NCBI RefSeq assembly: GCF_014696435.1
Contig: NZ_JACJQG010000061.1
Coordinates: 1 to 60,117, forward strand
Reading direction: 5' to 3'
Length of the DNA stretch: 60,117 nucleotides
DNA from: Calothrix anomala FACHB-343
GTDB lineage: Bacteria; Cyanobacteriota; Cyanobacteriia; Cyanobacteriales; Nostocaceae
In this document: positions 34,262 to 58,498 of the stretch, one piece after another
Layout of the letters: every line of letters starts with the position of its first letter
Position numbering within the stretch: position 1 is the first letter of the stretch
Position numbers and translations under genes: made by a program
The notes under the pieces: generated by a model
The model's database searches: none
Seen by the model: only the letters and a program-made list of their open reading frames with translations
Told to the model about the DNA's origin: nothing

Positions 34262-35701
34262 TCAATTCTTCTGCATAGCAAAACAAAAACGTCCAACTAC
34301 AACTGGACTCTTGCTCATAAAGTTTTCTGTATTATCTTTTAAACCTTCCATGAATGGTTGTAAATTATAAGTTTTCCAGTCATTACTACTATTACTATAG
34401 GTATTCCACTCAACCCACCAAGGTTGAGTTTGTACTCTTTTAGCTAACGCTTCAACCGTAAATAAGTAAATTTCTCTTTGGGGAAATAAGCTAGGTTTAA
34501 TAGTAGTTTGAAAACTTAAATTATTGCCATTTATTTGCCATTGATTCAGAGCTAATGCTGTTTGCAATTGAGAATCTGAAGCTACTTCTTGTAGAGTTTT
34601 TGATGCTGTAGCAGCACCCGGAGATAAAGCCGAAGTGTCTACCTTCATTTTTGTTTCTATAGAAGTTGGATCTACTTGCAAGGTATGATTATCAGTCTTC
34701 AGGGGAACTTGATAATTTACTGTTATATCTTGATTGGCTTTTTGATCTATAGCAAATAGCTCATTTTTAGGATTCTTATTGACTTTTATTTCTTCTTTTA
34801 AAGACTGCCTAAATTTTAAGTCTTTATGCGGTTTATCTGAACCTTTATTTTGAGAATCTTTTGACAGTCTTTGCAGATAAGCTACTTCAGTGACTAAATT
34901 ACTAGGAGAAAAAATCGTTACCTGGCTATTTTCGGGAATTTTTTGACTTTCACTTAATTTATTCAAATAATCTGCAATATCACTATAACGACCCAAAAAA
35001 ATTACATAAAATGGTCGTAACTCTTTACCATTAATTACATTACCCTGACTATTGTTAGTTGTGTAAGTAAATTTTTTATCTGTACCATCTTCTAGATAAA
35101 CATCGCCATTAAACTCGCTTTTAATAGCCAGAATCCCCACTGCATAACCAGGTTGGCTAGGATTAAAGTAATTCTCACTCAATAGCTTTTGCTTAAGTTT
35201 GGTGACATCTGCACCTTTTTGATATAAATCTGTCACAATAACTGTGAGTTTATTATCTTGTGCTGGGGTAATAGCATTATCAATGTTGCTAACTTTTAAT
35301 AGGGGGAATTTCTGCGGAACTTTACCATCATAAAATTTCGCCTGTCTTGCTAGCAGGTAATCATCTCGATTAATTTTTTGATAATTTTCTCCTAACCGAA
35401 AATATTGAACTTGCGATTGATTTCGTGATTGCGGTGTCCAGCCAGTTAATAATGTTTGATCCAGTAAATCAATTGTTTCAATATAGCGAGTTCTTGTATT
35501 CTGCGGATGGGTGACATACCCCTGCATAGATGGCGTACCATCTACATACATTTGAATATTTAAATTTTGAGATAGGTTGGGAGTACTACTAACTGAGGAA
35601 TTATCACAGTTAAACTCTACTTGTTTGAGTGTATCGCAACCCATCACTAATAAAGGCATCGTAGTTGCGATCGCCAATCTTAACCATTTTACTCTGATCA
35701 T
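34262..35701 (-). CDS. Lipoprotein with vWA-like fold
   Basis: A 479-residue exported protein. The ATG at 35701 follows AAGGA and gives a lipoprotein signal with Cys22 (MPLLVMGC). The segment LNIQMYVDGTPSMQGYV resembles a von Willebrand A metal-site strand (D-x-T/S-x-S), and LTVIVTDLYQKGADVTKLKQ resembles its next conserved Asp strand. The rest includes a beta-rich second half with no family I know. It is divergent from the trypsin-led operon, 485 bases away. It may be the extracytoplasmic partner of that system, but the link is by position only. Confidence 0.6.
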   Translation of the reverse strand: MIRVKWLRLAIATTMPLLVMGCDTLKQVEFNCDNSSVSSTPNLSQNLNIQMYVDGTPSMQGYVTHPQNTRTRYIETIDLLDQTLLTGWTPQSRNQSQVQYFRLGENYQKINRDDYLLARQAKFYDGKVPQKFPLLKVSNIDNAITPAQDNKLTVIVTDLYQKGADVTKLKQKLLSENYFNPSQPGYAVGILAIKSEFNGDVYLEDGTDKKFTYTTNNSQGNVINGKELRPFYVIFLGRYSDIADYLNKLSESQKIPENSQVTIFSPSNLVTEVAYLQRLSKDSQNKGSDKPHKDLKFRQSLKEEIKVNKNPKNELFAIDQKANQDITVNYQVPLKTDNHTLQVDPTSIETKMKVDTSALSPGAATASKTLQEVASDSQLQTALALNQWQINGNNLSFQTTIKPSLFPQREIYLFTVEALAKRVQTQPWWVEWNTYSNSSNDWKTYNLQPFMEGLKDNTENFMSKSPVVVGRFCFAMQKN

Positions 35702-36185
35702 GCTTTCCTTAAGCACAAAAGCGGATATTTCATAGATTATCGCAATAAACTACACCTAACTTTGATTTTTTGTCTATATTGCAATTTTGAACAAAATGTA
35801 AAAATTATTACTACAATTTATACTTTAGTGTATCAAATGTTTGATAAACTTATACTAAGTAGTACAGGATTAGGCAAAATTAAGCATTTTAGTGGTAAAT
35901 ATCACTGAAATAAGCTGGATTTAGATACCTGATTTCTGGTAGGATACATCTGGTGAATAAGGAGTTTCGACTATTATTTGCGTAAATTATGTAACAGCTA
36001 AAAATACTTAAGGTAAATAACAATTGATTGTATTAATAATTTTAAAGAATTCCAGGACATAGTGTACAAATTGCTGAAGTTACTAAAGAATCATTTTTAA
36101 AATTTAGTAGTACATGCTCAGAGGATGTTTATCCAGTCAAAATGTATACTCGTAACCTTTCTCCTCGGAGGAGAGAAATTTTCAA
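35702..36185. other. AT-rich divergent promoter region of the accessory locus
   Basis: This gap between the vWA-like lipoprotein and the leader ORF is AT-rich without simple repeats. CTCCTCGGAGGAG at 36161-36173 is a near-palindrome that ends in the Shine-Dalgarno sequence of the 35-codon ORF, so it could mask that site by pairing. Confidence 0.4.
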
Positions 36186-36293
36186 ATGACCATACTGAAT
36201 AAAAGAATGAGCTTAGTAGGGTTAGGTTTTCGGAGTTTTGGTGTTAGCAATAATACTTTTAAAACTGTACCAATAATGTTTACAGCGAAATAG
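36186..36293 (+). CDS. 35-residue leader ORF ahead of the trypsin gene
   Basis: A short ORF starts at ATG 36186 after GGAGGAGAG (36167-36175) and ends at TAG 36291-36293, 12 bases before the protease start. The product begins MTILNKRMSLVGLGFRSFG and ends TVPIMFTAK. It is small, basic and partly hydrophobic. It may be a real microprotein, a leader peptide controlling the operon by translation, or chance. The strong ribosome site and the tight spacing argue for translation. I know no family. Confidence 0.35.
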   Translation: MTILNKRMSLVGLGFRSFGVSNNTFKTVPIMFTAK

Positions 36294-36305
36294 TCTATCA
36301 GGAGA

Positions 36306-37430
36306 TTGACTGTGAAGGGATTACCATCCGATCTGAATCAACGATGTTTTAATTTATTTCTAGATTGTGAATATTTTGATAGTTTTGAAACCTTGCGTAG
36401 TTTTTGTGAAAGTTTTCAAGAATTAACAGCTTTATCACGTCAACTGAAAAAAGCAGATAGTAAATGGGATTTAGTAGACAGAAATTTATCTACTATAAGT
36501 AATAATTATCATGATATATACAATTGGATCTTACCAATTTTTATTGAAAAGTTGCAAGAACGTTACAAAATAAGGCAAGATCCTTTATGGCGTAAATTCC
36601 AAAATTTACATAGTGAAATTATTAATCTCAGTATTGTAGAAACTTCACCTCAATCTGATTTAAAACCCGAAGCAAACCCCAAGGGTGAGCCATTTTATTA
36701 TCTTGCAGCAGATGAGAAAGTTCTGAATAGTGCCCGTGCAGTTGCTCGTGTAAGTACGCTCAGGAATAGCAACAAAAGCCCAGACAAAGTTTTAACAGAG
36801 ACAGGAACAGCATGGTTAGTAACTCCTAATCTTGTATTAACTTGTCGGCACGTAATTGAATCTGTATATCCGCAATGGGAGTGTAACAGATTTCATGATT
36901 GTGATGTCGATATTAAAGAGGAAATTCAAAATAAAATTAAAAAAAATGTAGTGTTAACTTTTAACTACAAACAACCCAGTCAAGGTATTGAATATGGAGT
37001 TGAGCAGTTAGAAGATGACAACATTGATTTAGATTATGCTGTTTTACGTTTATGCGATCGCAAAGATCATCCTTTGAAAAATATGGGTTTCTTGCAACTA
37101 GATATAAATGCACCTTTAACATCACAATTAAAACTACATGTAATTCAGCATCCAAAAGGACAACCTCAGCAACGCTCAGTAGGAGATTTTGTTAAGTATG
37201 CATCAAACAACAAACAAATACTTCATAATGCACCTACTGAGGGAGGAACCTCTGGCGCACCCGTATTAAACCTCACCAACTGTCAAGTAGTAGCACTACA
37301 CATCGGAGAAAATGAAAATAAAGCATTGCGGACAGCCACATTAATCAGTGCCATTTTATCTGATATGGAACAAAATAACTCCACACTGTATCAGGAAATT
37401 TTAGCAGTCCAATCAACACATCAACATTAA
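36306..37430 (+). CDS. Trypsin-like serine protease with N-terminal effector-associated domain
   Basis: A 374-residue intracellular protease. Residues 1-105 form a helical domain (GLPSDLNQRCFNLFLDCEYF) that recurs at the start of the iSTAND-like protein two genes downstream, and looks like an effector-associated domain (EAD). Residues ~140-370 are a trypsin-fold protease with His182 (NLVLTCRHVIES), Asp243 (NIDLDYAVLRL) and Ser316 (GGTSGAPVLN). There is no signal peptide. EADs in conflict systems are thought to join effectors to their ATPase hubs by like-with-like contact, so this is the probable effector. The start is TTG after GGAGA, as in the paralogue; the GTG two codons on is possible. 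Confidence 0.8.
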   Translation: MTVKGLPSDLNQRCFNLFLDCEYFDSFETLRSFCESFQELTALSRQLKKADSKWDLVDRNLSTISNNYHDIYNWILPIFIEKLQERYKIRQDPLWRKFQNLHSEIINLSIVETSPQSDLKPEANPKGEPFYYLAADEKVLNSARAVARVSTLRNSNKSPDKVLTETGTAWLVTPNLVLTCRHVIESVYPQWECNRFHDCDVDIKEEIQNKIKKNVVLTFNYKQPSQGIEYGVEQLEDDNIDLDYAVLRLCDRKDHPLKNMGFLQLDINAPLTSQLKLHVIQHPKGQPQQRSVGDFVKYASNNKQILHNAPTEGGTSGAPVLNLTNCQVVALHIGENENKALRTATLISAILSDMEQNNSTLYQEILAVQSTHQH

Positions 37431-37441: not shown

Positions 37442-38542
37442 ATGTCAACAGGTGTTACTCCTTTTTATTACCCAGAACAACCAGATCCTTCATTTCAATT
37501 GCAGTTAGAAGACAGCTACTTTTTGGTAAAGCTACACGATACCCAAGCATTTTTTGAAGTTGATTGGCTGAGAAACCCGCTGAATAAACTTAGTTATCTT
37601 ACCTTAAGTTCCTCTATTAAAAGCTCTTTTAAAGAAAATTTTTCTACTGAAAGCTTGCATAAAATATCTACAATCCAAAATAATATTCCCTGTCGTTTGG
37701 GCATTGGTTCTAACTTAACTGAGTGGTTACCAGTCCGCGCTAGTGGCTCATTGGAGATACAAATCACCTACACAGCATTGCAAGATACACCTATTAAGAA
37801 TTTGATCGCTCAAATTGAGCCAGCTGATTTGATTGCCAAGTTGTCATTAAAACCAGATTTGGCAGTAGCTCTTAAGGTTAGTAAATTTGTAGGCAAATTA
37901 TTGAGCTACTTAGTACAAGAAGGTAAGCAACATCAGATTTTTTCCTTAACTAGTACTTTAAATATACATGAGTTAAAAACAGGTTACTACGTTGCCATTG
38001 GCTCTCACAAAGATGAAGATTTACCCTCACCACAATTTTTGCAAATTGATAAAGATGGACGTTTAAGAGATAAAAGTGCAGAGAGTCTGCTTTCACGTTT
38101 GTCATACGTTGTAATTGAAGTACAAGGAATTTCAAAACTTGGAGCAGAAAGTTTCCGTGAGCAACCTTGGTGGGAACTGTTGACAACAGCGAAAAACATT
38201 ATATCTAATACTCCTTTTGACTCTGAATCAGATCGGCGAAAATTAAACAATGAATGGTTGGTGACACTGAAGTATGTGCAAACGTTAGCGAGCCAACAAA
38301 AAAGTGAAGTTTTAAAGTCAGAAATTCAAGGAGTAATTGCATCTGCTCAAGTTGAAGTAGATAACAAACTAAAACCACAAACAATAGCTGAGTCTACTAG
38401 AGGTGATGAATTACAAGATGAGTTGCAAGATATTTTAGGTATTGAAACCAAGCAAGAACTTCAAGATTTAGCAAGAAATTATCAAGAAGCATTGAAAATA
38501 TCTCAGCAATTGCTGAAACAGTATAATTTATCGGGAGATTGA
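37442..38542 (+). CDS. Unknown protein of the conflict-like operon
   Basis: A 366-residue soluble protein with no family I recognise. The first ~110 residues look beta-rich (FYYPEQPDPSFQLQLEDSYF, QAFFEVDWLRNPLNKLSYL, LGIGSNLTEWLPVRA), and the last ~130 are helical with a coiled-coil tail (DELQDELQDILGIETKQELQ). It has an ATG after AAGGA, 12 bases after the protease stop, and ends directly against the next gene. It is thus coupled to the protease and the iSTAND-like ATPase. It could be an adaptor or a vWA-MoxR-associated protein, but this is position-based inference only. Confidence 0.65.
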   Translation: MSTGVTPFYYPEQPDPSFQLQLEDSYFLVKLHDTQAFFEVDWLRNPLNKLSYLTLSSSIKSSFKENFSTESLHKISTIQNNIPCRLGIGSNLTEWLPVRASGSLEIQITYTALQDTPIKNLIAQIEPADLIAKLSLKPDLAVALKVSKFVGKLLSYLVQEGKQHQIFSLTSTLNIHELKTGYYVAIGSHKDEDLPSPQFLQIDKDGRLRDKSAESLLSRLSYVVIEVQGISKLGAESFREQPWWELLTTAKNIISNTPFDSESDRRKLNNEWLVTLKYVQTLASQQKSEVLKSEIQGVIASAQVEVDNKLKPQTIAESTRGDELQDELQDILGIETKQELQDLARNYQEALKISQQLLKQYNLSGD

Positions 38543-39718
38543 TTGACGGTGCAGGGGTTACCATCTGAGCTTAATAAATTATGTTTTGATGTATTTTTAG
38601 AGTGTGAAGAGTATTTTGATGACTATAGAAAATTGCGTGAATTGTGTAAAAGTTTAACGGAGGTATATGGTTTACACTATCAAATACAAACCGGAAGTAG
38701 TATTCATGAAGTAGTAGAAAATAATTTGTCTGTTATTATTAAATTCAGTCATCCTAAACATGGTTGGGCGTTAATAATTATTGTTAGGGTATTGCAAGAG
38801 CGTTACAAAAGCTTAAAAAATCCCTTATCGGTTAAATTAGATGATTTACACAATAAGTTACAAGAGTATGAAACAAAACAAAGTCATTCATACACGCAGA
38901 ATGAAAATAATATATTTGTATTAGAGAGTAAACTGTTTAAATTGATTAGTCAAATTGACTTTAATAAACAAGAAGAGGCATTTCATGAAGCAATAACTGT
39001 GCAAGCTCCTAAAGATAAAGATAGAGCGGCAGCTTTTTTGATTCATGGCCCTGAAAAACATGGACAAAAAGTTTTATTTGAAAGACTGGTTAAATTATTA
39101 TTTAAATTAGTAAATTATAGAGAGTATAGAGAAATACCATTAGGTGGAATTAGCAGTACTTTTGATGTTTGGAGTACAGTTGCTAGATACTTGGTTGATT
39201 CTCAACAACTAGATGATTTGTCACGACAAGACATTATGAATAAAGTTTTAGAATGTTTGCAAACTAAGCATATAATTTTTAGAGTTGATGACGTTCACAG
39301 TACTAATCCTAAATTTTTAAATGATTTGATTGATAATTTTTGGACACCTATTATTAATCACAGAAGAAATATAATAAATGGAAAGACAAATCAAAAATAT
39401 TCTTATAAAGAACCATGCTTTTTAGTTATGTTTTGGATTGATAATAATACACAAGTTTGTAATTGGGAAATTCCAAAGATAGACAACCATGAAGATTCAA
39501 AATATCCTCAGCATCCTTTAATATTAGCTGAAGCAAGTCCATTTTTAGATCAGGACTTAAACAAATGGTTAAGAATAGCAGACGACGAGATAATTAGTAA
39601 TTATAATATATCAGTTGATACTTTAAAGACTTTTTTAGCATCTTCACAATCAGGTGTTCCTGAGCTAGTGTATAAAACAATTTATGAACACTGTGGTCAT
39701 TTTTGGGAAGGGAGATAA
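38543..39718 (+). CDS. iSTAND-like ATPase-fold protein with N-terminal EAD
   Basis: A 391-residue protein. Residues 1-105 are the same effector-associated domain as in the protease (GLPSELNKLCFDVFLECEEY). The rest has a STAND NTPase look with a damaged P-loop: FLIHGPEKHGQKVLFERL near residue 170 lacks the Lys-Ser/Thr of Walker A. A Walker B-like strand IIFRVDDVHS follows near 250. This fits the inactive STAND (iSTAND) class from conflict systems, expected to act as a hub or sensor that recruits the EAD-protease. The TTG start follows GGGAGA and immediately abuts the previous stop. Confidence 0.7.
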   Translation: MTVQGLPSELNKLCFDVFLECEEYFDDYRKLRELCKSLTEVYGLHYQIQTGSSIHEVVENNLSVIIKFSHPKHGWALIIIVRVLQERYKSLKNPLSVKLDDLHNKLQEYETKQSHSYTQNENNIFVLESKLFKLISQIDFNKQEEAFHEAITVQAPKDKDRAAAFLIHGPEKHGQKVLFERLVKLLFKLVNYREYREIPLGGISSTFDVWSTVARYLVDSQQLDDLSRQDIMNKVLECLQTKHIIFRVDDVHSTNPKFLNDLIDNFWTPIINHRRNIINGKTNQKYSYKEPCFLVMFWIDNNTQVCNWEIPKIDNHEDSKYPQHPLILAEASPFLDQDLNKWLRIADDEIISNYNISVDTLKTFLASSQSGVPELVYKTIYEHCGHFWEGR

Positions 39719-39723
39719 TTACA

Positions 39724-40623
39724 ATGGTTGAATCAGCCAAATCTCTTGTTTATACAGGTAAAAAGCATCCTGATTTAGAGGAACAAACTGATTGGGGCAA
39801 ACCTTACAAACCCTCAGAAGAATTAATTAAAGCTGTAAATATTACTATTTCTTTAAAGAAACGTCCTTTATTACTCAAAGGAGAACCTGGTTGTGGTAAA
39901 ACTTGCCTAGCGAAAGCTGTAGCTTATGAACTAGGTTTACCTTACAAACCTTGGTACATCAAATCCACCACTAAGGCAAAAGATGGTTTTTATTCTTACG
40001 ATGCGGTGCGTCGCCTCCGCGATGCACAATTACGTGAACAGCAAAAATATAATGTTGATGACCTAGCAAATTACATTACAAAAGGCCCTTTATATGAAGC
40101 TTTTGAAAATACAAAGCAGCGTACTGTGGTGTTAATCGACGAAATTGATAAAGCTGATCTTGATTTTCCGAATGATTTGCTACAAGAACTAGATGAAAAG
40201 AGATTTTTTATTCAAGAAACAGGACAGATAATTACAGCCGTACAGCCACCTATTATATTTATTACTAGTAATAATGAAAAAGATTTACCTGATGCTTTTT
40301 TACGTCGTTGCTTGTTTCATTATATTGAGTTTCCCAAGGATAAACAATTAGAAGATATTGTTCAGTTTCACTTTCCAGAGTCACCAAAGGAGTATAGAAA
40401 AAAAGCCGTTGAAAGATTTACTAGGTTACGAGAACAAATGGAAAAAGGTAGTGGCAAAACTGGTAAAAAAGTTAGCACCAGTGAGTTAATTGATTGGTTT
40501 AAATTGTTACTTCTATATCCAGAGGAATTTGCAAACCTTGAAAGAAAGCTGCCTTTTCCAGAAGCGTTGCTAAAATATGAGAAGGATTATCAGCAATATA
40601 TTCCCAAAGAGGAGAAAAAGTGA
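39724..40623 (+). CDS. MoxR-type AAA+ ATPase
   Basis: A 299-residue AAA+ protein. Walker A GEPGCGKT is at residues 53-60, Walker B follows in TVVLIDEIDKADLDFPNDLL, then sensor 1 (FITSNNEKDLPDAFLRRC) and the arginine finger region. Of the two possible starts, ATG 39724 has GGGAAGGGAG ten bases upstream; the TTG at 39703 lies inside the previous gene. MoxR ATPases work with vWA proteins to remodel target proteins, and the very next gene, overlapping by 4 bases, encodes one. The pair is the likely motor of this system. Confidence 0.9.
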   Translation: MVESAKSLVYTGKKHPDLEEQTDWGKPYKPSEELIKAVNITISLKKRPLLLKGEPGCGKTCLAKAVAYELGLPYKPWYIKSTTKAKDGFYSYDAVRRLRDAQLREQQKYNVDDLANYITKGPLYEAFENTKQRTVVLIDEIDKADLDFPNDLLQELDEKRFFIQETGQIITAVQPPIIFITSNNEKDLPDAFLRRCLFHYIEFPKDKQLEDIVQFHFPESPKEYRKKAVERFTRLREQMEKGSGKTGKKVSTSELIDWFKLLLLYPEEFANLERKLPFPEALLKYEKDYQQYIPKEEKK

Positions 40624-41828
40624 ATTCCACTGAAATTCCTTTAGTAAATCTTTTGCTGAAGCTTTTTAAGAGTTTGCGTGAAGAATACCATTTTCCGCTT
40701 GGAGTTGATGACTATCTTTTGGCACTAGAGGCATTGCAAGCAGGATTTGGTATTGGCGATCCCCAAGCTTTAGAATTTCTATGTTGTACACTGTGGGCAA
40801 AATCTCCAAAAGATGCAAAGACTTTACATGAACAGCTAAATAAACTGCTAAAAAAAGCACAGATTGAAACAGAAAAATCCTTTACTATTGATAATTCTAC
40901 TATTAATAATAATGAATCGATAATTGATGCATTTTTGCCAGAAGCTCCATTAGTTGAGCCTGAATTACCTGTTGATTCTTCGACTGTACCACCTATTCCA
41001 GAAACATCCAGCACTTCCAAGTTTGGAGAGTTTGGAAATCAAGGTACTTTGTCTTCATCTACCGAACCACCTTTAGAACTAAAAGAACCTCAGAAGGTAA
41101 TTCAAGCTATCCGCCAGCATGAACCTAATCTTAGAATTAAGATTTACCCTCGGCAAGATCCAACCAAAGAATACTTACCTGTAACTAGTCGCCACATTAT
41201 CCAGAGTTGGCGTTTGCTCCGTCATCTTGTACGTAAAGGTACACTAGATAAATTGGATACAGTAGGTACAATAGATGAGGTTTCTCGACAAGGCGTTTTA
41301 CTTGATGCAATGATGATGCCACGTTATGTAAATCAGGCTCTACTTATCTTATTAGTTGACCAAGATGGCTCAATGGTGCCTTTTCATCATCTGTATCGTC
41401 AATTAATTGATAAAGCTCAACATGGTGGAAACATCAATAAAACCCTTATTTACTACTTTCATAATTATCCAGAAAAATATCTTTATGGTGATTCAACACG
41501 GATAAAGGGTAATCTAATAAAAGAAGTCTTGGAATCTTTTGATGACAAAGCAGCAGTGTTAATTATTAGTGATGCAGGTGCAGCACGCGGTTACTATAAT
41601 GAAGAGCGAGTTGAGGGTACTAAAAAGTTTATCGAACAGCTTCAAAAGTCAGTTCGTTATTTTGCTTGGCTCAATCCCGTACCTGATGATAGCTGGCAGA
41701 ATACTAGTGCTGAAGAGATTGCTTCTTTTGTACCAATGTTTGAAATGAGTCGTGACGGACTAATTGCAGCTATTGATATCTTGCGTGGTCGCTATGTTTT
41801 TTGCCCCGATCAATCAACATCATCATAA
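40620..41828 (+). CDS. vWA-like protein partner of MoxR
   Basis: A 402-residue soluble protein. The N-terminal ~85 residues are helical (LLLKLFKSLREEYHFPLGVDD, similar to N-terminal domains of vWA proteins in MoxR operons). A Pro/Ser/Thr-rich linker at ~100-150 follows. The C-terminal half, from about 200, is vWA-like: LLVDQDGSMVPFHHLYR is the DxDGS variant of the metal site, and AVLIISDAGAARGYYNEERV carries the later conserved Asp. The GTG start overlaps the MoxR stop (GTGA), so the two are translationally coupled. In vWA-MoxR systems this protein is the adaptor for the motor. Confidence 0.8.
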   Translation: MNSTEIPLVNLLLKLFKSLREEYHFPLGVDDYLLALEALQAGFGIGDPQALEFLCCTLWAKSPKDAKTLHEQLNKLLKKAQIETEKSFTIDNSTINNNESIIDAFLPEAPLVEPELPVDSSTVPPIPETSSTSKFGEFGNQGTLSSSTEPPLELKEPQKVIQAIRQHEPNLRIKIYPRQDPTKEYLPVTSRHIIQSWRLLRHLVRKGTLDKLDTVGTIDEVSRQGVLLDAMMMPRYVNQALLILLVDQDGSMVPFHHLYRQLIDKAQHGGNINKTLIYYFHNYPEKYLYGDSTRIKGNLIKEVLESFDDKAAVLIISDAGAARGYYNEERVEGTKKFIEQLQKSVRYFAWLNPVPDDSWQNTSAEEIASFVPMFEMSRDGLIAAIDILRGRYVFCPDQSTSS

Positions 41829-41831
41829 ATC

Positions 41832-46737: not shown

Positions 46738-48258
46738 ATGTCACTGTATATTATTGGCATTGGTGGTACAGGTGCTAAATGCATGGAATCTGTGATTCAT
46801 CTGGCTGCTGTTGGTTTATTTGCCGACGAACCTATTAAACTTTTGTTTATCGATGCAGATGAAAGTAATGGTAATTTAGAACGTGCTAACACGAGTCTTA
46901 ATATTTATCAAAGATGCTACAAATTAGTAGAAGGAGAAAAACAGCAGTCTCCTTGGATGAAAACACCAATTGAAGCATTTGAAGTCTGGTCGCCGTTTAG
47001 CGAAAAATCTATCAATAAAAATCTCGGTTCATTTTTTGGTTACAACAACCTCAAGCAGAATTATCAGACATTGGGTAATCTTTTTGATGTTTTATATACA
47101 CAAGAAGAACGCGAAGTTGAATTAGATGTAGGTTTTCGGGGACGACCGGCTATTGGTTCGGCAATTATGAGTCAAGTAGATTTAGATACTCTAGATCAAG
47201 AACCTTGGCGAGGCATAATTAATCAAATTAACAGCGATGTAGCTGGTGGTAAGCCAGTCAAGATTTTTCTGTGTGGTTCAATTTTTGGCGGTACAGGCGC
47301 TTCCGGTTTACCAACGATTGGTAAGTTAATTGCGAATAAATTGAAAAAAATTAGTGTCCGCGATCGCGTCAAAATTGCTTGTTTATTTGTTCTCCCCTAT
47401 TTTAACTTCTCAGCACCTACTGGAGAAGATCCAAATGCTGTTTATGCCCAATCTGATTTATTCTTGCTGAACACAGAAGCCGCACTCCGTTACTACGAAA
47501 GTCAAGCCCAAGAAATGTTCGACACAGTGTATCTGTTGGGTAATTCCAACTCCACACCAGTTAAATTCAGTATTGGCAAAAAAACTCAACGCAATCACTC
47601 ACACTTTCTCGAATTATATGCAGCCACCGCCGCCAGACAATTTTTATTCAATTCTCCGCCAACTGGGACAGTAGTGTTAATTGGAAGGGAAGGAGAAAAA
47701 CAACTAAATTGGAGCGATATTCCCGAAGAAAATGTAATTAAATCAGCCTTGGTAAATGCTACACGCTTCGCCTATGCTTGGCTATCCAACACTGCTGTAG
47801 AGTTAACTAGTGCTAAAGATAAAGGAGTTGATTGGGCGCAGAGATACATTAATTGGTTTAGTCGATTTTATCGTCCTAACCCAGGAATGCTAGGCAAAAT
47901 TTTTGATAAAAAAGGCGAAGAATTACCCGATTTTGCCGATCCAAAAGAACAGGAAGCTATCAGAATTATCAATTATTGGTGTCAGGATTATCTGCGCTGG
48001 TTATATGAATTACATCAATGTCAAGGTGACGCAGTAAATCTGTTTACAGCTAATTCCTTTAGCAATCCCGCAGGACAACTCAAGCAAGAAGAATTTTCTC
48101 AGCTTGTCAAAAGCGATAGTCGAGATGAAGGTAAAAAAAACCAAGACACAGTGCAGAGATTACACGTATCCCTGACATCTGAACCCAGAGTTCTCAATCC
48201 ACCCAACCAAGGTACAGCCGGATTAGCCAAGGCTTTATACATACTTTGTCGGCTGTAA
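46738..48258 (+). CDS. Tubulin-like GTPase-fold protein
   Basis: A 506-residue member of the bacterial tubulin-like family (Tubulin_2 type). The N-terminal nucleotide loop is IIGIGGTGAKCMESVIH, and the tubulin signature appears as CGSIFGGTGASGLPTIGKL near residue 185. Both match the GGTG(S/A)G pattern of FtsZ/TubZ relatives. LLFIDADESNGN and LLNTEAALRYYESQAQEM are also conserved-looking. It is much longer than FtsZ's GTPase core and has an unassigned C-terminal part. It starts 3 bases after the membrane protein. Whether it polymerises is unknown. Its location between two Hsp70/actin-fold genes is unusual. Confidence 0.85.
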   Translation: MSLYIIGIGGTGAKCMESVIHLAAVGLFADEPIKLLFIDADESNGNLERANTSLNIYQRCYKLVEGEKQQSPWMKTPIEAFEVWSPFSEKSINKNLGSFFGYNNLKQNYQTLGNLFDVLYTQEEREVELDVGFRGRPAIGSAIMSQVDLDTLDQEPWRGIINQINSDVAGGKPVKIFLCGSIFGGTGASGLPTIGKLIANKLKKISVRDRVKIACLFVLPYFNFSAPTGEDPNAVYAQSDLFLLNTEAALRYYESQAQEMFDTVYLLGNSNSTPVKFSIGKKTQRNHSHFLELYAATAARQFLFNSPPTGTVVLIGREGEKQLNWSDIPEENVIKSALVNATRFAYAWLSNTAVELTSAKDKGVDWAQRYINWFSRFYRPNPGMLGKIFDKKGEELPDFADPKEQEAIRIINYWCQDYLRWLYELHQCQGDAVNLFTANSFSNPAGQLKQEEFSQLVKSDSRDEGKKNQDTVQRLHVSLTSEPRVLNPPNQGTAGLAKALYILCRL

Positions 48259-51600: not shown

Positions 51601-51878
51601 CTACATTGGAAATTTTACCGAAATTCCTTTATGACTTCCATATGACTTTAAAGGAACTGGAGATTGAAGGAATCAAATCTTTAGAAGGATATAAAAGAAG
51701 TCCAGATCCGCAAAGCAACGACAAATTATGGCGTGAAACCAACCGCGAATTGACTAATGTTTTACTCAAAATCAAAGGTAAATCAGATGAAATTCGCTTA
51801 GAACCTCCCTATATACTCGGTTTGAAAGCGCTGTTGAAGGTTTTAGGTAAGCAGTGGGCCGATAAATGGTCTAAGTAA
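48612..51878 (+). CDS. Giant Hsp70/actin-fold protein 2 (paralogue lacking the N-terminal domain)
   Basis: A 1088-residue paralogue of the 1314-residue protein; it aligns from about residue 245 of that protein to the end. Phosphate-1 is VDFGTSFTNIYV (~547), phosphate-2 is the canonical DVGGGTSDISIW, and YIGGNGGRFLHW follows. It has a short insert (GLNDGNPPANYR) that paralogue 1 lacks. The middle part differs at many positions, but the last ~230 residues are nearly identical to the paralogue even at the DNA level. It follows the tubulin-like gene after a repeat-rich gap, so it may be transcribed separately. A hairpin at 51884-51914 follows the stop. Confidence 0.78.
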   Translation: MTNAQPSKKQLHFFLPTLKPDSDVKPIDESGKWQAQRNKVFQDVASSLEYKAPRAVKSVSSVPTMWARPLSMEMALHNGKYPIRDQMIEQWRGMLAAIALAEVRGFPITAQLLQLRDFKHEEFARSLTELLPSDRNSLYTLDNKHPWEDIYIFLWDGKPVGITTPSTLVCPSEEGRWIGLPWWEDGILKSPIRHLNSTEKSLLWRWLENLRKELGNYQGKKQAINMIGGLIDQFRTDLNADTQPAISLTEDPQFFGVPLNRGVLNALNKPLKALEKPSNVRLIPSPEKGVLPDLLIIDPEIAKAWNESPQHIWVHGGKTLASLKIEDLRTKKLVWQTVQWIESKDLFLPEFSFINQEEALPGAYLPKETVPLTFEGERITPLIPLNPKLLEYLTPEEINRRIQFQPFNGDEGPQVRVILDLPLAGLNDGNPPANYRISKDYPLKQDNALAEVPVLEVWPNFRAKGWKTYYAFYYDGEHENDTFQVFLPEAKQPHIFKDGRGSYQMAYLEQFPSVIICQGKDRKLLGLMLLQAPDEIELRSSWTVGVDFGTSFTNIYVNRTDVAEPLKLENLHLKVTEFNPETRLPLLYEYFIPENFIPVEKPLPLSSVLTIRGNSGASQEKWQPIFDGRIYVPDRNRFKPQEDWIKTNLKWEESQNLSYNQLFLKHLALHISALAAKNRVKEIQWSLSFPSAFSKGDKNRYAKTWQDLTKELQAKTGIIHKSPQIDNADYFRSESLAVAQYFADQEGHDLVNTTCIDVGGGTSDISIWEEENLVHQCSVLFAGRDLFSQFLELNPKFMETRFGIAAAEVKGLKGTAFNPKLDVWLRLEGDNWLNNKREYIADQPDFQGLIQLTAIGTAGLYYYVGILLKVLHKEGKYSRDEITPVYIGGNGGRFLHWLAEGGRFDRYSEINELLSRILSKASGFEDTEVSTQLSQNLKDEVACGLVLNQTKLQGLKKKAKDPLIAGEYSEINGRQMNWNQRLELLDEEDGIEQFKIPTLEILPKFLYDFHMTLKELEIEGIKSLEGYKRSPDPQSNDKLWRETNRELTNVLLKIKGKSDEIRLEPPYILGLKALLKVLGKQWADKWSK

Positions 51879-52056: not shown

Positions 52057-53163
52057 ATGTCACAATCCCCATTTGACCATATTCATCCTAAATCAACTCC
52101 ACACCCTTCAACAACTGAGACTTATAACACATTTATGGATGATTCTGAAGCGCAAGATACAGAAGAAATCCGCCAACAACAAAACTTAAAAAATGCTTTG
52201 GAAGAAATGCTGTCTACATTTGAGAAACTAAGCAAAAAACTTCCAGATACTATTCGTATTAGTAATATAGAAAGATTAGATAAGACAGAACTCAAGAAGT
52301 TAGAAGATGGGAATCATAAAATAGAGCAATTCCGTCAAGATTTTTGGAATTTTTATAAACCTAGTCTCAAATATGAGCTAGGAATAACTACTGCAACTCA
52401 GTCAGAAAAACCTCCTTCTACTTCAACATCTACTTCTAAACAAAATAGTCAGCATCAAGAAATTTCAGAGCATTCAGCCCAATCCTATCAGGAGCAATTA
52501 CAACTCCAGCCTATTCTTCTAGAAAAATTAATACAAATAGCTTCAGATATCCAATCTATATGCTCACAAATTGAGAAACAATCAGCTTATATAAACGATA
52601 ACTTAAAAACCGCAATAGTAACAGAGGTAATCACAGAAATTAAAAAATATTTTGTCGCTAATCCTCAAGAAAATTTATTAGAAAAAGATACTGTGCCAGA
52701 TGAAAAGCCAGACAAGCATCGTTCTGAAATAACCCAGACACGGGAAACTCAATCTCAACAAGTATTTAGCCAATCTTCTAATGAATACCAGTTACCTTGG
52801 GTGTCAAAGTATAATCAAAATCCAGATTATTTTGCAACATTCGCGCTGGAAGTTTCAGCAACAGAAGAAAGTATTAATCAACGTCGCCTTGGTACTAATC
52901 AAGCAGTAATTATTGAAAAAGTGAAAAAAGGTAGAGGAAATTATTGGCTACTAGCTGATACCAATGAACATTACTTAGTGCCTAAAGGAGAATTAAAAAT
53001 TAATCAGTATAATTTACCAACAATTGCAGCCCTATTTCAATGTACTGGAGAATCTCCAGAAAATTCTCAGAAGTTTACACTCGTGAGACCTGCGATGGTT
53101 TTTCCTATAGAATCCGAAAAATGGCAACTTGAAACAGTTGGTATGTTAAAATTTGAAGCCTAG
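52057..53163 (+). CDS. Array gene 1: coiled-coil protein with C-terminal repeat domain
   Basis: A 368-residue soluble protein. The N-terminal ~245 residues are glutamine/serine-rich and partly coiled coil (ALEEMLSTFEKLSKKLPDT, ILLEKLIQIASDIQSICSQI). Residues 247-368 are copy A of a ~120-residue domain that occurs seven times in five adjacent genes: YNQNP, EVSATEESINQRRLG, GRGNYWLLAD, HYLVPKGELKINQYN, FTLVRPAMV and a W-L-G-L-F ending. The pattern of alternating short strands suggests a beta-rich fold. I know no name for it. The gene is downstream of the Hsp70/tubulin block. Confidence 0.72.
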   Translation: MSQSPFDHIHPKSTPHPSTTETYNTFMDDSEAQDTEEIRQQQNLKNALEEMLSTFEKLSKKLPDTIRISNIERLDKTELKKLEDGNHKIEQFRQDFWNFYKPSLKYELGITTATQSEKPPSTSTSTSKQNSQHQEISEHSAQSYQEQLQLQPILLEKLIQIASDIQSICSQIEKQSAYINDNLKTAIVTEVITEIKKYFVANPQENLLEKDTVPDEKPDKHRSEITQTRETQSQQVFSQSSNEYQLPWVSKYNQNPDYFATFALEVSATEESINQRRLGTNQAVIIEKVKKGRGNYWLLADTNEHYLVPKGELKINQYNLPTIAALFQCTGESPENSQKFTLVRPAMVFPIESEKWQLETVGMLKFEA

Positions 53164-53423: not shown

Positions 53424-54647
53424 ATGTCAACCTACCCATGTCCAATTTGTGGCAACCCAAACTACAGCAATCAGCAATATTGTTCGCAGTGCGAATTTCC
53501 CGTAGCACATCTTGCTTCTGCTTTTCCTATAGTAAAGGAAGAACAAGTAGTGAAATGGTCACAGGACAAATATTGGGAAATACAAAAACTCTCACAAAAA
53601 CATTCTTCAGTAAATGATAGTTTAGACCGAACAACTGATAAGCCAGAGTCGCCAGACTATGCAAAATTGCAGGACAGAATTAAACAATTAGAGAAAGAGA
53701 AAGCCGAAATAGAATCCAGATTTCATCTCATGGATGAGAAATTGACTGAACTCGAAAAGAAACTTCCACAAGCTATTATTGTTGACGCAACTACTGAACA
53801 AAAGCTAAATGATTGGGGAAGTAATCTGGCTGCTAAAATCGATAAATGGAATAACGAACAGCAATCAGAATGTAAAAACGTATTTCATAATTTACGCTCT
53901 GAGTTAAAACGGTCAAAGTGTGAATTAAAAATTCAAACACCACAAGATACACAAAAAAGTAACGTCTCTGTAACAACTCCAACAAAGTTGCAAAATCACG
54001 ATGAAATACAACAGCAGCCTCGTTTAGAACAATTGCAACCGCTATTCTCAGAACTATTTTCACCAATCGAAAAACATTTTATTGACAATATACAATCTCT
54101 CAAAACTGAGGTCATAGCGGAAATCAAAAATTATTTAGATTCTAGAGATCAGGAAAATTTACTAAAAACTAATATCCCCCCAGAAGAGACAATAAGAAAT
54201 CCTGAACCAGAAGTAATCCAACTAGTAGAAATTCAACCGCAAGAAGTAACTCATCACCCACTACCTTCTGCTGAGTCCCAGATCCCTTGGGTATCAGCTT
54301 ATAATCACAACCCAGAAAAGTTTTCCAAATTCGCCCTAGAAGTTTCAGTCACAGAAGAAAGTATTAATCGACGAGGTTTTGGTAACAACCAACCAATAAT
54401 TATTGAAAAAGTCCGCAAGGGTAGAGGAAATTATTGGCTACTAACTGATGCCAATGAACATTATTTAGTACCTAAAGGAGATTTAAAAATTAATCAGTAT
54501 AATTTTCCAACAATTGAGGCCTTATTTCAAAGTATTGGAGATTCACCCGAAAACTCTCAGAAATTTACACTTGTAAAACCTGCTATGGTTTTTCCTTTAG
54601 AATCCGAAAAATGGCAGCTTCAAGAACGGGGTCTACTGCAATTCTAA
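53424..54647 (+). CDS. Array gene 2: zinc-ribbon coiled-coil protein with repeat domain
   Basis: A 407-residue protein. Residues ~6-26 form a zinc ribbon with two Cys pairs (CPICG, then CSQCE). A charged coiled coil follows at about 75-115 (LQDRIKQLEKEKAEIESRF). Residues 288-407 are copy B of the shared domain (PWVSAYNHNP, TEESINRRGFG, NYWLLTDANEHYLVPKGDLK, QERGLLQF). The middle has a VIAEIKNYLDSRDQENLLK segment also present in array genes 1 and 4. Its upstream region is a duplicate of that of gene 1. The role is unknown; the zinc ribbon suggests a binding or scaffold function. Confidence 0.72.
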   Translation: MSTYPCPICGNPNYSNQQYCSQCEFPVAHLASAFPIVKEEQVVKWSQDKYWEIQKLSQKHSSVNDSLDRTTDKPESPDYAKLQDRIKQLEKEKAEIESRFHLMDEKLTELEKKLPQAIIVDATTEQKLNDWGSNLAAKIDKWNNEQQSECKNVFHNLRSELKRSKCELKIQTPQDTQKSNVSVTTPTKLQNHDEIQQQPRLEQLQPLFSELFSPIEKHFIDNIQSLKTEVIAEIKNYLDSRDQENLLKTNIPPEETIRNPEPEVIQLVEIQPQEVTHHPLPSAESQIPWVSAYNHNPEKFSKFALEVSVTEESINRRGFGNNQPIIIEKVRKGRGNYWLLTDANEHYLVPKGDLKINQYNFPTIEALFQSIGDSPENSQKFTLVKPAMVFPLESEKWQLQERGLLQF

Positions 54648-54708
54648 CTTAGATTTAGCAGCATTGGTTACAACTATTAGCTTTAGGTAAAACCACGATT
54701 GCTTGCTT

Positions 54709-56043
54709 ATGAAAAAGGTGAAAATTAAGAAATCATTACCAGCTTTATTAATAGTCTCATATCTATTAATAACCTGTCAAGCTGTAATCGCATTTGCTCA
54801 TGAAAAACATAGTAATTCCTATTTCCTCAGCCAGCAAAATCCAACCGTTAATAGTGCAGAAATTACAGAAATAACACAGGCTTATAATGAATTTGATAAT
54901 TCTCTAAAAATTCTGCTAAACCAACTCCAAGATGTAATTGACAACAAGCTTAACTCCAAATCTCTCGATTTTAAAACACCAAATGCACAACTAAAAAAAC
55001 TGCGCCAAGTCAACAATAATTTGCTGGAAATAGAAAAATCTAATTTAAGCGATACCTTCAGTAATATCAACAATACTATCACTGAAATTTCAAAAGTAAT
55101 TGAGCCTTTATCCCAGGGGTTGACATCTAAAAATGTCACGCAAATTCAAAATTATCTTGATCTTCCTGATAAAGATCCGCAAGTTAAGAGAAATTTAGGT
55201 AGTTTTGGGGAAATCACCCAAAAAAATATACAAGAATTTTTAATTAATCGGCATCAAAAGTTAGCTGAATATATGCAATTATTAACAAATAATAGCCCAA
55301 GTGAATCAGCTAATTTATTAGATGAAAATAAACAGCTAAAAGCAGAAATTAATAATTTTACTTGGAAATATAACTTATCTGTTATCGCTGCATTTGTCGC
55401 AGGTATATGTGTGGGATTTTTCAGGAAACTTCCCAGACAAAAAATCCGCAATCAACGCACACATCTTAAGCCAAATACTCCTCCTTATATCGAGGAAGCC
55501 GATCCAGATTATTCTCCAAATCCCGACGATCAAAATTATCCTTCACAAACTGCGATCGCATCACCGTCACCCCAACCCCCAACAGAAACAAATCCACCAC
55601 CAAGAGAAAATCCTGCTAATAGCCAAGCAGAAAATACCAACAGGTCTATTAGTAGAATAATTCATAATGCATCTGTAAATGAATTAATAACAATTTATAA
55701 TCAAAATCGCAATTCATTATCTAAATATTCTACAGAAGTTTCCGAAACCGAGGAAAGCATTAATCAACGTCGTTTAGGTAGTCATCAAGCAGCAATCCTA
55801 GAAAAAGTCAGTAAAGGTAAAGGTAGTTATTGGATAATCAATAAAGAAGGACTAGATTATCTTGTTCCCAAAGGAAGTATCAAAATCAATGAATTTAATT
55901 ATAAAACAGTTGAATCTTTATTTGATTGTCAAGGCTATCAACCAAATATCTCCAGTGATTTTGTACTGCTTAAACCAGCACAAGTTACCTCAATTTCTCA
56001 ACAAATGTGGCAAATTGTTGATTACGGTGTGCTAAGATTTTAA
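54709..56043 (+). CDS. Array gene 3: membrane-anchored protein with repeat domain
   Basis: A 444-residue protein, read from the ATG at 54709. It starts with a signal or membrane segment (~9-30, ALLIVSYLLITCQAVIAFAH), then a helical region of ~200 residues that should be extracytoplasmic. A second helix at about residue 225 (LSVIAAFVAGICVGFF) precedes a basic stop-transfer patch (RKLPRQKIRNQR) and a Pro-rich linker. Residues ~324-444 are copy C of the shared domain, predicted to be cytoplasmic. It would tether the domain family to the membrane. It starts 61 bases after array gene 2. Confidence 0.7.
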   Translation: MKKVKIKKSLPALLIVSYLLITCQAVIAFAHEKHSNSYFLSQQNPTVNSAEITEITQAYNEFDNSLKILLNQLQDVIDNKLNSKSLDFKTPNAQLKKLRQVNNNLLEIEKSNLSDTFSNINNTITEISKVIEPLSQGLTSKNVTQIQNYLDLPDKDPQVKRNLGSFGEITQKNIQEFLINRHQKLAEYMQLLTNNSPSESANLLDENKQLKAEINNFTWKYNLSVIAAFVAGICVGFFRKLPRQKIRNQRTHLKPNTPPYIEEADPDYSPNPDDQNYPSQTAIASPSPQPPTETNPPPRENPANSQAENTNRSISRIIHNASVNELITIYNQNRNSLSKYSTEVSETEESINQRRLGSHQAAILEKVSKGKGSYWIINKEGLDYLVPKGSIKINEFNYKTVESLFDCQGYQPNISSDFVLLKPAQVTSISQQMWQIVDYGVLRF

Positions 56044-56144: not shown

Positions 56145-56167
56145 TGAAACCTTATTAATTGTCACCA

Positions 56168-57352
56168 ATGAAAATTGAATTTTTTAACATAAACCTTTCG
56201 GAATTAATTCAAATTTATAATCATGTACCTAATCTCCTTTCAAGAAAAGCAATCAAAGTTTCCTTGACAGAAGATAGCCTCATCACCCAAAACAATCAAC
56301 TAATTTTTCTAGAAAATGCGAGAAATGGTAACTATTGGGTAATCGCTACTGAAGATAGCAACTATTGGCTTTTACCAAAAACCAATCTCAAAATAGATTC
56401 ATTTAAATATGAAACACTGAAATCTTTATTTCATTGTGATGGATATCAACCAGAAAATACTAGTAAATTTTCCCTACTACATCCAGCTAGAGTTTCTCTT
56501 ACACCGAGTAGTTTGAAGTGGAAACTTGAAGAAAGGGGAAGATTAGATTTTTTAGATGTTGCTAAAACTGCGGAATTATCTCAATTACAAGCTGAACTGG
56601 AATCGATGTATGAAGAAAATAACAAACTCCAATTTCAATTAGAGTCATTAACTCAATATCCTCATCTACTTCAATCTCAGTTAAAACACTTAAGTGAACA
56701 GATTCAAGCCCAAAAGCAGCAGTTTAACCAAAAAATACAGCAAACTGCACAGGAAAGCCAATCTCTGTTAAATATTTTGAACAATAATCTTAATAAGATA
56801 GATACAGAGCTAAAAGAAATCAAAAATTATTTAGTCTCAAATCATAAACAAAATTTATCAAAAAGTAACATTGACTCAAATCAAAACACAATAAATTACG
56901 AATATCAAGTAATCCAACAACCAGTAGATCAATATCAAATACCATCTTCCAGTCAACCTTCTGGTGAGTCCCAGTTCCCTTGGGTATCAGCTTATAATCA
57001 CAACCCAGATAATTTTTCAAAATTTGCTCTGGAAGTTGCCGATACAGAAGACAGTATTAATCAACGCCGCCTTGGGAATAACCAAGCAGTAATTTTTGAA
57101 AAAGTTCGTAGGGGTAGAGGAAATTATTGGCTACTAACTGTAAAAAATGAAAATTATTTAGTCCCTAGAGGAGATTTAAAAATTAATCAATATAATTTAC
57201 AAACAATTACAGCTTTATTTCATTTTATTGGAGATTTTACAGAAAATTCTCCAAAATTTACACTTGTAAAACCTGCTATGGTTTTTCCTTTAGAAGCCGA
57301 AAAATGGCAACTTCAAGAACGTGGTGTACTTAAATTTGAATTTTTTCTATGA
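56168..57352 (+). CDS. Array gene 4: protein with two copies of the repeat domain
   Basis: A 394-residue protein from the ATG at 56168. It has copy D1 at residues ~11-128 (SELIQIYNHVPN, TEDSLITQNNQ, NYWVIATEDSNYWLLPKTNL) and copy D2 at 271-394 (PWVSAYNHNPDNF, TEDSINQRRLGNNQ, QERGVLKF). Between them is a coiled coil (~135-215, LQAELESMYEENNKLQFQL). D2 is closest to copies A and B; D1 is closest to E1 of the next gene. This suggests domain shuffling between neighbours. Two like domains joined by a coiled coil could cross-link partners. Confidence 0.72.
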   Translation: MKIEFFNINLSELIQIYNHVPNLLSRKAIKVSLTEDSLITQNNQLIFLENARNGNYWVIATEDSNYWLLPKTNLKIDSFKYETLKSLFHCDGYQPENTSKFSLLHPARVSLTPSSLKWKLEERGRLDFLDVAKTAELSQLQAELESMYEENNKLQFQLESLTQYPHLLQSQLKHLSEQIQAQKQQFNQKIQQTAQESQSLLNILNNNLNKIDTELKEIKNYLVSNHKQNLSKSNIDSNQNTINYEYQVIQQPVDQYQIPSSSQPSGESQFPWVSAYNHNPDNFSKFALEVADTEDSINQRRLGNNQAVIFEKVRRGRGNYWLLTVKNENYLVPRGDLKINQYNLQTITALFHFIGDFTENSPKFTLVKPAMVFPLEAEKWQLQERGVLKFEFFL

Positions 57353-57385
57353 ATCTTTTAAGAAATTTAATATTAATTATTTAAT

Positions 57386-58498
57386 ATGCTCAATCCAGAA
57401 GATTTTGAAGAAATTTTCACAAAACTTAATTATATATTTGATAAGGTTAGTGAATTAGATCGGAGATTGGTTTTTTTAGAGAATTCTTTGGGAAATCTAA
57501 ATAAACCCACTCTTATAGACTCAGGAATAAAGGTAGCTGAGGCTATGGAAATTCCGACAATTAACAAAGTCAATTTTTCCAAAAATGAGTTACTAGAAAT
57601 TTATAATAGTGACTTCCGGCAGCTAACTACTTATGTCATAAAAGTATCAGTAACAGAAGATAGCTTGTCTCAACAAAATTTTCAGAAAATTTTATTAGAA
57701 AAAAGAAGAAATGCTAACTATTGGATTATAGTTACTGAAGAGGATGATTACTATCTTTTACCAAAAGGTAATCTAAAAATTGATCGATATAATTATCAAA
57801 TCATAGAATCTTTGTTTCAGTGTCATGGATACCAGCCTGATGTACATAACAAATTTATCCTGAATCAGCCTGCTATCGTTGAGCTAACATCAAATGGGCA
57901 ACAATGGATGTTAGCTCAAAGAGGAGTATTGCAATTTACAACTGCTTTGGATGGTTCAGAGGTAGTAGATATTAAAAATTTGGCTGAAAATCCTGCTGAT
58001 AACAGCAATATCAAAGGTCAGTTAGACGCTTCTATTTCTATATTTAAACATATATCAATATACCCAGAAGAGCGTCTGCGATCGCCTGGAGAAATATCAT
58101 TAGTTAATGACTATAATCAAAATCCTAATCTCTTTACTTCGCTATATTCTGTCATCGAAGTTCGAGAATCTGAAGAAAGCATTAATAGAGTCTTTTTTAT
58201 TAACAACGAACCTAAAATTCAACTTGTCAAACTTCACCCAGGTCATTACTGGATCGTAGTTGCCGAAAACATAAGTTATCTATTTCCTAAGTTTAATATT
58301 ATAATTACTCAGGAAAATTTAGACATAGTGCAAGATATATTTGAATGCCAAAACTATCACGATAATCATTCTCATCCATTCACCTTAATCCAGCCAGGAA
58401 AATTATCTCCTTTGTTCCCAGAGGATACCGACTCAGTGCTGACCTCAGTAGATCGGTGGATCTTGTTAGAACGGGGAGTACTGCGATTTAAATTTTAA
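57386..58498 (+). CDS. Array gene 5: protein with two divergent copies of the repeat domain
   Basis: A 370-residue protein, 33 bases after array gene 4. A short N-terminal coiled coil (LNYIFDKVSELDRRLVFLEN) is followed by copy E1 at ~67-185 (NELLEIYNSDFRQ, TEDSLSQQNFQ, YYLLPKGNLKIDRYNYQ, AQRGVLQF). Copy E2 is at ~246-370 (SLVNDYNQNPN, ESEESINRVFF, ERGVLRFKF). E2 is the most divergent copy and has lost the GRGNYW block's form (HPGHYWIVV). It is the last gene of the array. Confidence 0.7.
   Translation: MLNPEDFEEIFTKLNYIFDKVSELDRRLVFLENSLGNLNKPTLIDSGIKVAEAMEIPTINKVNFSKNELLEIYNSDFRQLTTYVIKVSVTEDSLSQQNFQKILLEKRRNANYWIIVTEEDDYYLLPKGNLKIDRYNYQIIESLFQCHGYQPDVHNKFILNQPAIVELTSNGQQWMLAQRGVLQFTTALDGSEVVDIKNLAENPADNSNIKGQLDASISIFKHISIYPEERLRSPGEISLVNDYNQNPNLFTSLYSVIEVRESEESINRVFFINNEPKIQLVKLHPGHYWIVVAENISYLFPKFNIIITQENLDIVQDIFECQNYHDNHSHPFTLIQPGKLSPLFPEDTDSVLTSVDRWILLERGVLRFKF

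Follow-up and report, generated by a model that had tools for sequence, protein, structure and literature searches.

The window analyzed here is a 60-kb contig (NZ_JACJQG010000061.1, 60,117 nucleotides) from the 9.24-Mb genome of the cyanobacterium Calothrix anomala FACHB-343. Between the genes for chorismate synthase (32984-34072) and guanylate kinase (59356) it contains 15 genes, one on the minus and 14 on the plus strand, in which two systems are joined. System A is a conserved operon for a lipoprotein, a small membrane protein, a tubulin-like GTPase, an ATPase of the ASKHA fold and proteins with a shared array domain. System B is a predicted conflict cassette of the MoxR-vWA/iSTAND type, which is located inside this operon and whose last domain, vWA-L, is fused in frame to a complete second copy of the operon's own ATPase. 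Sequence comparison supports the anatomy of both systems, the duplication of the ATPase, a constraint on the duplicate and a gene-conversion tract, and it indicates that systems A and B were joined at least twice independently, at different places of the operon and by the same kind of fusion. Tentatively, we interpret the fused ATPase as bait or sensor of an immune-receptor-like arrangement, comparable to an integrated decoy.

In the window the cassette sits between the lipoprotein and the membrane-protein genes, which are neighbors in most other loci. The regions which define the fusion are:

41832-42557, plus strand: vWA-L domain, residues 1-242 of the 1314-residue fusion (name taken from the published layout, no profile)
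42549-45776, plus strand: full-length duplicate of the ASKHA ATPase, C-terminal to vWA-L in the fusion (fusion open reading frame 41832-45776)
45069-45608, plus strand: gene-conversion tract in the fusion copy, codons 1080-1259 (codon comparison)
48612-51878, plus strand: original ASKHA ATPase of the operon, 1088 residues (profile, fold and tubulin gene upstream)
51171-51710, plus strand: gene-conversion tract, copy in the original ATPase (position from alignment)

The fused copy and the original ATPase are 81% identical overall and 75-80% identical before the conversion tract. Within fusion codons 1080-1259 there are 12 codon differences among 176 codons for identical residues, compared with 20-57% in the other blocks, and therefore this segment represents a conversion tract between fusion and original. 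For the phylogenetic analysis we used 28 of 47 aligned ATPases in a short search with the tract left out. The window fusion and the original ATPase were recovered as sisters (SH-aLRT 99), and the end branch of the fusion was about three times longer than that of the original (0.25 versus 0.075). At positions 1-900 the fusion shows 83 lineage-unique residues and the original 23, judged against two relatives. The ratio of non-synonymous to synonymous substitutions (dN/dS) between both copies was 0.06-0.11, a rough value with dS near or over 1 outside the tract. Taken together, these comparisons show that the fusion is a maintained, faster-evolving gene. One nucleotide motif is altered, GGTTSD in the fusion versus GGGTSD in the original, and the other nucleotide motifs are kept. 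A scan of 45 relatives revealed GGGTSD in 32, another residue at that site in two (L138, L140) and 11 sequences outside the search pattern.

The second fusion was identified in Phormidium sp. OSCR (genome G234, locus L149). Here the iSTAND, MoxR and vWA genes separate tubulin from ATPase, and the ATPase carries vWA-L in an in-frame fusion. Phormidium willei (L148) displays the corresponding empty site: the cassette of roughly 5 kb is absent, the ATPase is unfused, and the flanks are 87.6% and 88.3% identical to those of OSCR. The P. willei ATPase is sister to the OSCR ATPase (support 100), and a single clade of the two fused ATPases was rejected (approximately unbiased test, p-AU 2.3e-6).

Beyond these two genomes the join was not encountered. 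MoxR, vWA and vWA-L were present in system A in one of 79 ATPase loci and in one of 21 contexts, both times in OSCR, and in none of seven further contexts (six with tubulin) or 50 stretches (41 with tubulin); these sets overlap. Absence of the cassette was judged by MoxR, vWA and vWA-L; the scripted iSTAND search misses distant members, including the one of L149, which Pfam detected. Of 292 phylum genomes, 26 have the vWA-L domain, and in two of these, the window genome and OSCR, it lies inside system A. The combination is unusual, as a previous sequence-only reading of the window had suggested. No fusion of vWA-L with an ASKHA or Hsp70 domain was seen described in the open-licence literature searched, supplements aside.

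Among the ATPase frames listed in an order-wide search only three are longer than 1250 residues: those of the window and OSCR, and one in Microcystis viridis FACHB-1342 (L096 14784-18647, minus strand). The latter encodes a protein of 1287 residues that joins a caspase domain (5.7e-13) to a shorter ASKHA copy and has a HATPase_c_4 match below the threshold. On our reading of its domains, this protein would combine an executioner with an ASKHA part in a receptor-like arrangement. Its neighbors are a 141-residue protein that has a hydrophobic segment and a lipoprotein-like gene carrying an array domain.

The remaining genes of system A are the following:

34262-35716, minus strand: vWA-like lipoprotein, 484 residues, DGTPSM motif; divergent first gene of the operon (open reading frame, motif, homologues)
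46159-46734, plus strand: small membrane protein; homologous start probably 46255
46738-48258, plus strand: Tubulin_2/FtsZl1-type GTPase, 506 residues, GGTGAS loop (PF13809 7.5e-9)
52057-53163, plus strand: array gene a1; one domain copy, 52792-53157
53424-54647, plus strand: array gene a2; one domain copy, 54279-54644, and a Cys4 motif resembling a zinc ribbon at the N-terminus (by eye; Pfam match weak)
54703-56043, plus strand: array gene a3; one domain copy, 55675-56040, and hydrophobic stretches at the N-terminus and further inside (by eye)
56159-57352, plus strand: array gene a4; two domain copies, 56198-56551 and 56972-57340
57386-58498, plus strand: array gene a5; two domain copies, 57578-57937 and 58094-58489

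This operon is a real, patchy, multi-gene unit. A genome scan with a ten-row ATPase alignment yielded 91 stretches, and the best 80 of these provided the 79 loci; several are cut by contig ends and some genomes contribute more than one locus. They comprise 53 cyanobacterial loci, 25 from Selenomonadales/Selenomonadaceae and one from Calditrichia. In the cyanobacterial set tubulin was found in 48 loci (in 47 directly upstream of the ATPase on the same strand). Homologues of the small membrane protein were detected in 46 loci and those of the vWA-like lipoprotein in 36, and 45 loci contain the array domain. Where tubulin was also seen, the lipoprotein gene is on the opposite strand in 31 cases and on the same strand in four. 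Tubulin directly upstream of the ATPase was observed in four of the 26 non-cyanobacterial loci. Within the 292 phylum genomes the ATPase is present in 22, tubulin in 21 and the array domain in 24, the last number including two short, weak matches (G083, G117). Tubulin and ATPase occur together in 20 and all three in 19 of these genomes, with the overlaps counted by eye and related genomes not being independent. Order-wide, 69 of 388 genomes contain the ATPase. At most 15 first-look candidates per genome were scored in the array scan and at most two in the order-wide ATPase scan.

The tubulin match to PF13809 (Tubulin_2) is above the cut-off and the tubulin-type GTP-binding loop is present. The lipoprotein gave no Pfam match, vWA included, and its likeness to vWA consists of the DGTPSM motif. 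The sequence-only reading let the locus begin at 34262 and left this minus-strand gene undescribed; the gene belongs to the conserved operon. It had further treated the 24 kb as one system. This was rejected: the conserved operon of tubulin, ASKHA and array genes is a system apart, and almost all of its loci examined have no cassette. According to the same reading, finding these genes mostly apart from the vWA-MoxR core would reduce their closeness to chance. The whole set is indeed mostly found apart from the core, but the two independent fusions argue against chance.

Some loci of system A carry additional genes. In L163 (3922-7797) AAA_35 and WD40 (STAND-like) genes are located between lipoprotein and membrane protein, and in L166 (1005-6748) such genes separate membrane protein and tubulin; both cases may be due to chance. 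In the Calditrichia locus L205 a true HSP70 gene (13483-15063, 4.5e-80) directly follows the ASKHA ATPase of the operon. In L229 (G570) the ASKHA match of the operon ends after about 76 residues and is followed by transposase-like open reading frames (by eye) and a shorter ASKHA copy. Relatives of the ASKHA ATPase were also detected on five plasmid records of 47-253 kb, including one of Gloeothece verrucosa PCC 7822, and the operon may therefore travel.

The two large proteins (41832-45776 and 48612-51878) had been described as Hsp70/actin-fold proteins. Neither shows a Pfam HSP70 match at E 0.1, and matches to FtsA/MreB are weak (E 0.03-0.07); membership in Hsp70 (DnaK) proper was rejected on these grounds. 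A 47-row ATPase profile, from which L132 was omitted due to an internal stop, detected MreB (best 2e-5) and FtsA in the PDB. The AlphaFold model of the ATPase (mean predicted local distance difference test score, pLDDT, 87) matches MreB, DnaK, BeeR and actin (E 1e-7 to 3e-6), hence actin-type and Hsp70 proteins alike, and phosphate and adenosine motifs are present. These proteins are distant ASKHA (actin/FtsA/MreB/Hsp70-fold) ATPases with a shared part of about 1090 residues.

The seven-copy domain family noted previously was recovered: all seven matches in this genome lie in this locus, in the five genes between 52057 and 58498 (15 of 40 first-look candidates scored). The array model was built from 66 of 158 copies, and the predicted structure (pLDDT 86) gave no PDB match. 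Two relatives, L156 15395-18379 (Lyngbya confervoides) and G214:C1 around 4127122-4129725, possess a second ATPase copy of shorter length that is fused to the array domain, which links array and ATPase.

System B comprises, in addition to vWA-L, five genes:

36306-37430, plus strand: bDLD1 (effector-associated domain, EAD)-trypsin-like protease (PF20689 3.3e-7, PF13365 Trypsin_2 1.3e-13)
37442-38542, plus strand: 366-residue protein without family (homologue in the stand-alone cassette of G257)
38543-39718, plus strand: bDLD1 (sub-threshold)-iSTAND third component (PF19995 2.9e-17)
39703-40623, plus strand: MoxR-type AAA+ ATPase, Walker A GEPGCGKT (AAA_5 8e-13)
40620-41828, plus strand: CoxE-type vWA protein, DxDGS at the presumed metal ion-dependent adhesion site (VWA_CoxE 4.4e-9)

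The protease contains the motifs CRHV (His) and GTSGAP (Ser), and the Asp was assigned by eye. The match of bDLD1 is above the cut-off in the protease and below it in the iSTAND protein (PF20689 0.0058, 17.3 bits versus a cut-off of 25), and none was found in the iSTAND protein of L149. The N-terminus of the protease matches the N-terminus of the iSTAND-protein homologue in L278 (9e-14). The iSTAND third component itself was detected in the window and in L149 (PF19995, 1.8e-14), and in both loci MoxR adjoins the CoxE-type vWA protein. The variable domain is linked through vWA-L, as judged by layout and not by profile. Across the phylum, a vWA gene similar to 40620-41828 was found within 1 kb upstream of vWA-L in 26 of 29 fetched loci and in 29 of 34 places beyond the window. 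By eye, the region following vWA-L is FGS-like in 18 of 28 printed proteins and consists in most others of TPR, NACHT, FHA, pentapeptide, P-loop or unassigned sequence; the 28 include the OSCR ASKHA protein and two short fragments.

A stand-alone version of the cassette was found in G257 (L278). All six parts are present in the same order with 43-59% identity (iSTAND protein 32%), and TPR-like repeats follow vWA-L. The homologue of the 37442-38542 protein, which has no match in Pfam, PADLOC or NCBIfam, is 57% identical and occupies the same position. No gene of system A was found in this 19-kb stretch, and system B is therefore a module of its own. From these matches we predict that it is an iSTAND-type MoxR-vWA conflict/cell-suicide cassette in the vWA-L layout of Kaur et al. 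All genes named by the sequence-only reading are uninterrupted open reading frames on the plus strand, with Pfam matches for trypsin, iSTAND, MoxR, vWA and tubulin, and its assignment of the first part to the vWA-MoxR and EAD systems of Kaur et al. is supported by the matches to bDLD1, iSTAND, MoxR and VWA_CoxE.

To trace the origin of the locus we compared the sister genome G001, whose aroC and gmk proteins are 100% and 98% identical to those of the window. The interval between both genes measures 2.5 kb in G001 and 25 kb in the window. It holds degraded leftovers of array genes, together with short segments similar to the end of the lipoprotein gene and to the region after the ATPase (L289 15741-18296). 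A tubulin match in G001 (7e-4) was taken as spurious. A recent acquisition of the whole locus was rejected, as the remnants are read as loss; the locus was probably lost in G001. Many intergenic stretches of the window contain short tandem repeats with 7-base units, which are typical of filamentous cyanobacteria.

The function of system A can be approached from Synechocystis PCC 6803, where the unit sll0443-sll0449 has been published (PMC2633013). Sll0445 carries a Tubulin_2 and Sll0446 an FtsA domain. Impaired phototaxis is reported for mutants of the operon (PMC9880817). A lexA mutant shows sll0443-0445 and sll0448 increased about 4-6 fold (PMC4759255), mutation of comFB deregulates Sll0445 and Sll0446 (PMC12313861), and a CRP site is predicted in the operon (PMC2633013). 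In our searches the ASKHA ATPase was present in all five Synechocystis genomes. In Synechocystis salina (L177) the lipoprotein gene is followed in order by those for the membrane protein, tubulin and, beyond some other small genes, the FtsA-type ATPase. Core gene order and Tubulin_2/FtsA-type domains thus correspond to the window operon; in contrast, the cassette is absent from L177 and small genes separate tubulin and ASKHA. Judged by genus, domain names and gene order, system A is likely the counterpart of sll0443-sll0449. On this evidence it is a motility- or envelope-linked machine and not a defence system, and the defence role formerly considered for the tubulin part is unsupported, given the link of the Synechocystis counterpart to phototactic motility.

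Among known systems, the iSTAND MoxR-vWA ternary systems (Kaur et al. 2020, PMC7159879; vWA-L/separate-gene layout, PMC8195603, 2021) share with system B the bDLD1-trypsin, iSTAND (here with a sub-threshold bDLD1), MoxR and CoxE-type vWA proteins, and in both a gene of its own encodes vWA-L followed by a variable C-terminal domain. In the window, however, this domain is a full ASKHA copy from the neighboring operon and the cassette is located inside that operon; the parts of both papers considered here contain no mention of an ASKHA or Hsp70 domain at the vWA-L position. Like system A, the FtsZl1 operons, some of them cyanobacterial, encode a Tubulin_2-type GTPase along with membrane proteins (Makarova and Koonin 2010, PMC2875224). 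They also include a vWA protein, for which the lipoprotein with the DGTPSM motif is the candidate in the window. The P-loop GTPase or OmpA gene, frequent but not universal there, is missing among the Pfam matches of the window, and a term search of that paper yielded neither Hsp70 nor DnaK, and actin in other contexts only. The DO-GTPase conflict systems described by Kaur et al. 2020 also bring a tubulin together with an Hsp70-fold protein. The Pfam matches of our locus include no TRAFAC GTPase or FNIII gene and its ASKHA proteins are not Pfam HSP70; membership in these systems was rejected for lack of a TRAFAC GTPase match. In ternary systems diversified by diversity-generating retroelements a vWA-linked variable domain is proposed as sensor (Dore et al. 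2024, PMC10907252). The variable part in the window differs from these in being the copy of a host protein. In plants, NLR receptors with integrated decoys are immune modules that carry a host-protein copy. The proteins are unrelated, and the likeness is an analogy of architecture only.

Our preferred, still tentative interpretation of the fused ATPase as bait or sensor is based on five points. In other proteins, the region after vWA-L is mostly of the FGS-like, repeat or binding type. In the caspase fusion, ASKHA is combined with an executioner. A C-terminal tract has been homogenized with the original by conversion, as would be expected if both copies need a common surface. The fused copy is constrained in spite of its fast evolution. 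Finally, the vWA-linked variable domain is the sensor in the proposal of Dore et al. Decoy roles have been proposed for inactive effector copies (Kaur et al. 2020, PMC7159879). Concerning physical interaction, direction of the signal and outcome, we infer the following course. The fused copy would enter the tubulin/ASKHA complex or mimic part of it. An invader that perturbs this complex, or binds the fused copy, would act as trigger, and MoxR-vWA would then remodel the assembly. The bDLD1 of the iSTAND protein could recruit the bDLD1-trypsin, and proteolysis would follow, after which the cell would probably be arrested or die.

Several points weigh against this interpretation. The fused ATPase of OSCR is the only copy found in its genome, hence no spare decoy exists there, and only two vWA-L-ASKHA fusions were found in total. 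The kept nucleotide motifs give no sign of inactivity, as two relatives also differ at the one altered site. The faster evolution could reflect relaxed constraint, with dN/dS being a rough measure, and near repeats can undergo conversion irrespective of function. No confirmed ASKHA relative emerged when viral contigs were scanned by pattern, and no phage partner is in sight. Furthermore, Kaur et al. 2020 (PMC7159879) call the position after vWA the effector. A more specific version, to which we assign a smaller probability, is that the MoxR-vWA/iSTAND death module repeatedly captures ASKHA and guards the motility machine against invaders by means of the fused copy, as a bacterial counterpart of integrated-decoy receptors, with the caspase-ASKHA protein as a parallel solution.

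The effector assignment leads to a different explanation, which we consider less likely but a serious rival: upon infection the cassette would release or activate the fused ASKHA, which would then poison or re-route the tubulin/ASKHA machine, for example by a shutdown of motility or pili. Kaur et al. 2020 place effectors after vWA, where they note FtsZ/tubulin and further cell-division domains as rare cases, and the uninterrupted, constrained state of the fused copy would fit an effector as well. However, the other domains at the vWA-L position are by eye mostly FGS-like or of repeat/binding type, the likely executioner of the caspase-ASKHA fusion is another domain, and the fused protein of OSCR, the only copy found, presumably serves the normal function too.

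This last point would be compatible with a non-immune role, in which MoxR-vWA acts as assembly chaperone or regulator of the ASKHA/tubulin machine and trypsin and iSTAND proteins tune its turnover. In various settings, MoxR-vWA pairs contribute to the assembly of complexes (Kaur et al. 2020, PMC7159879), and the Synechocystis operon is under regulation, as indicated by the predicted CRP site and the increase in the lexA mutant. We nevertheless regard this role, although a serious rival, as unlikely: in nearly all loci examined the operon is free of the cassette, the same cassette carries other C-terminal domains elsewhere, and death-like domains together with trypsin are typical of predicted conflict systems. 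That an accessory cassette landed in the operon and the closeness is meaningless seems very improbable, since vWA-L was fused in frame twice independently to one ATPase family and the duplicate is constrained and carries a conversion tract, even though the operon nearly always lacks the cassette, the 26 of 292 genomes with vWA-L have it in the operon in two cases, and the operons of L163 and L166 contain STAND/WD40-type genes as well.

The variable domain linked to vWA in these predicted conflict systems is considered an effector by one group of authors (Kaur et al.) and a sensor by another (Dore et al.). The locus makes this question directly testable, as it offers a fused host ATPase, a known partner operon, a reported mutant phenotype and a natural empty-site pair. 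If the interpretation of the fused ATPase as bait or sensor is true, a bacterial immune module would be tied to a named cytoskeleton-like machine.

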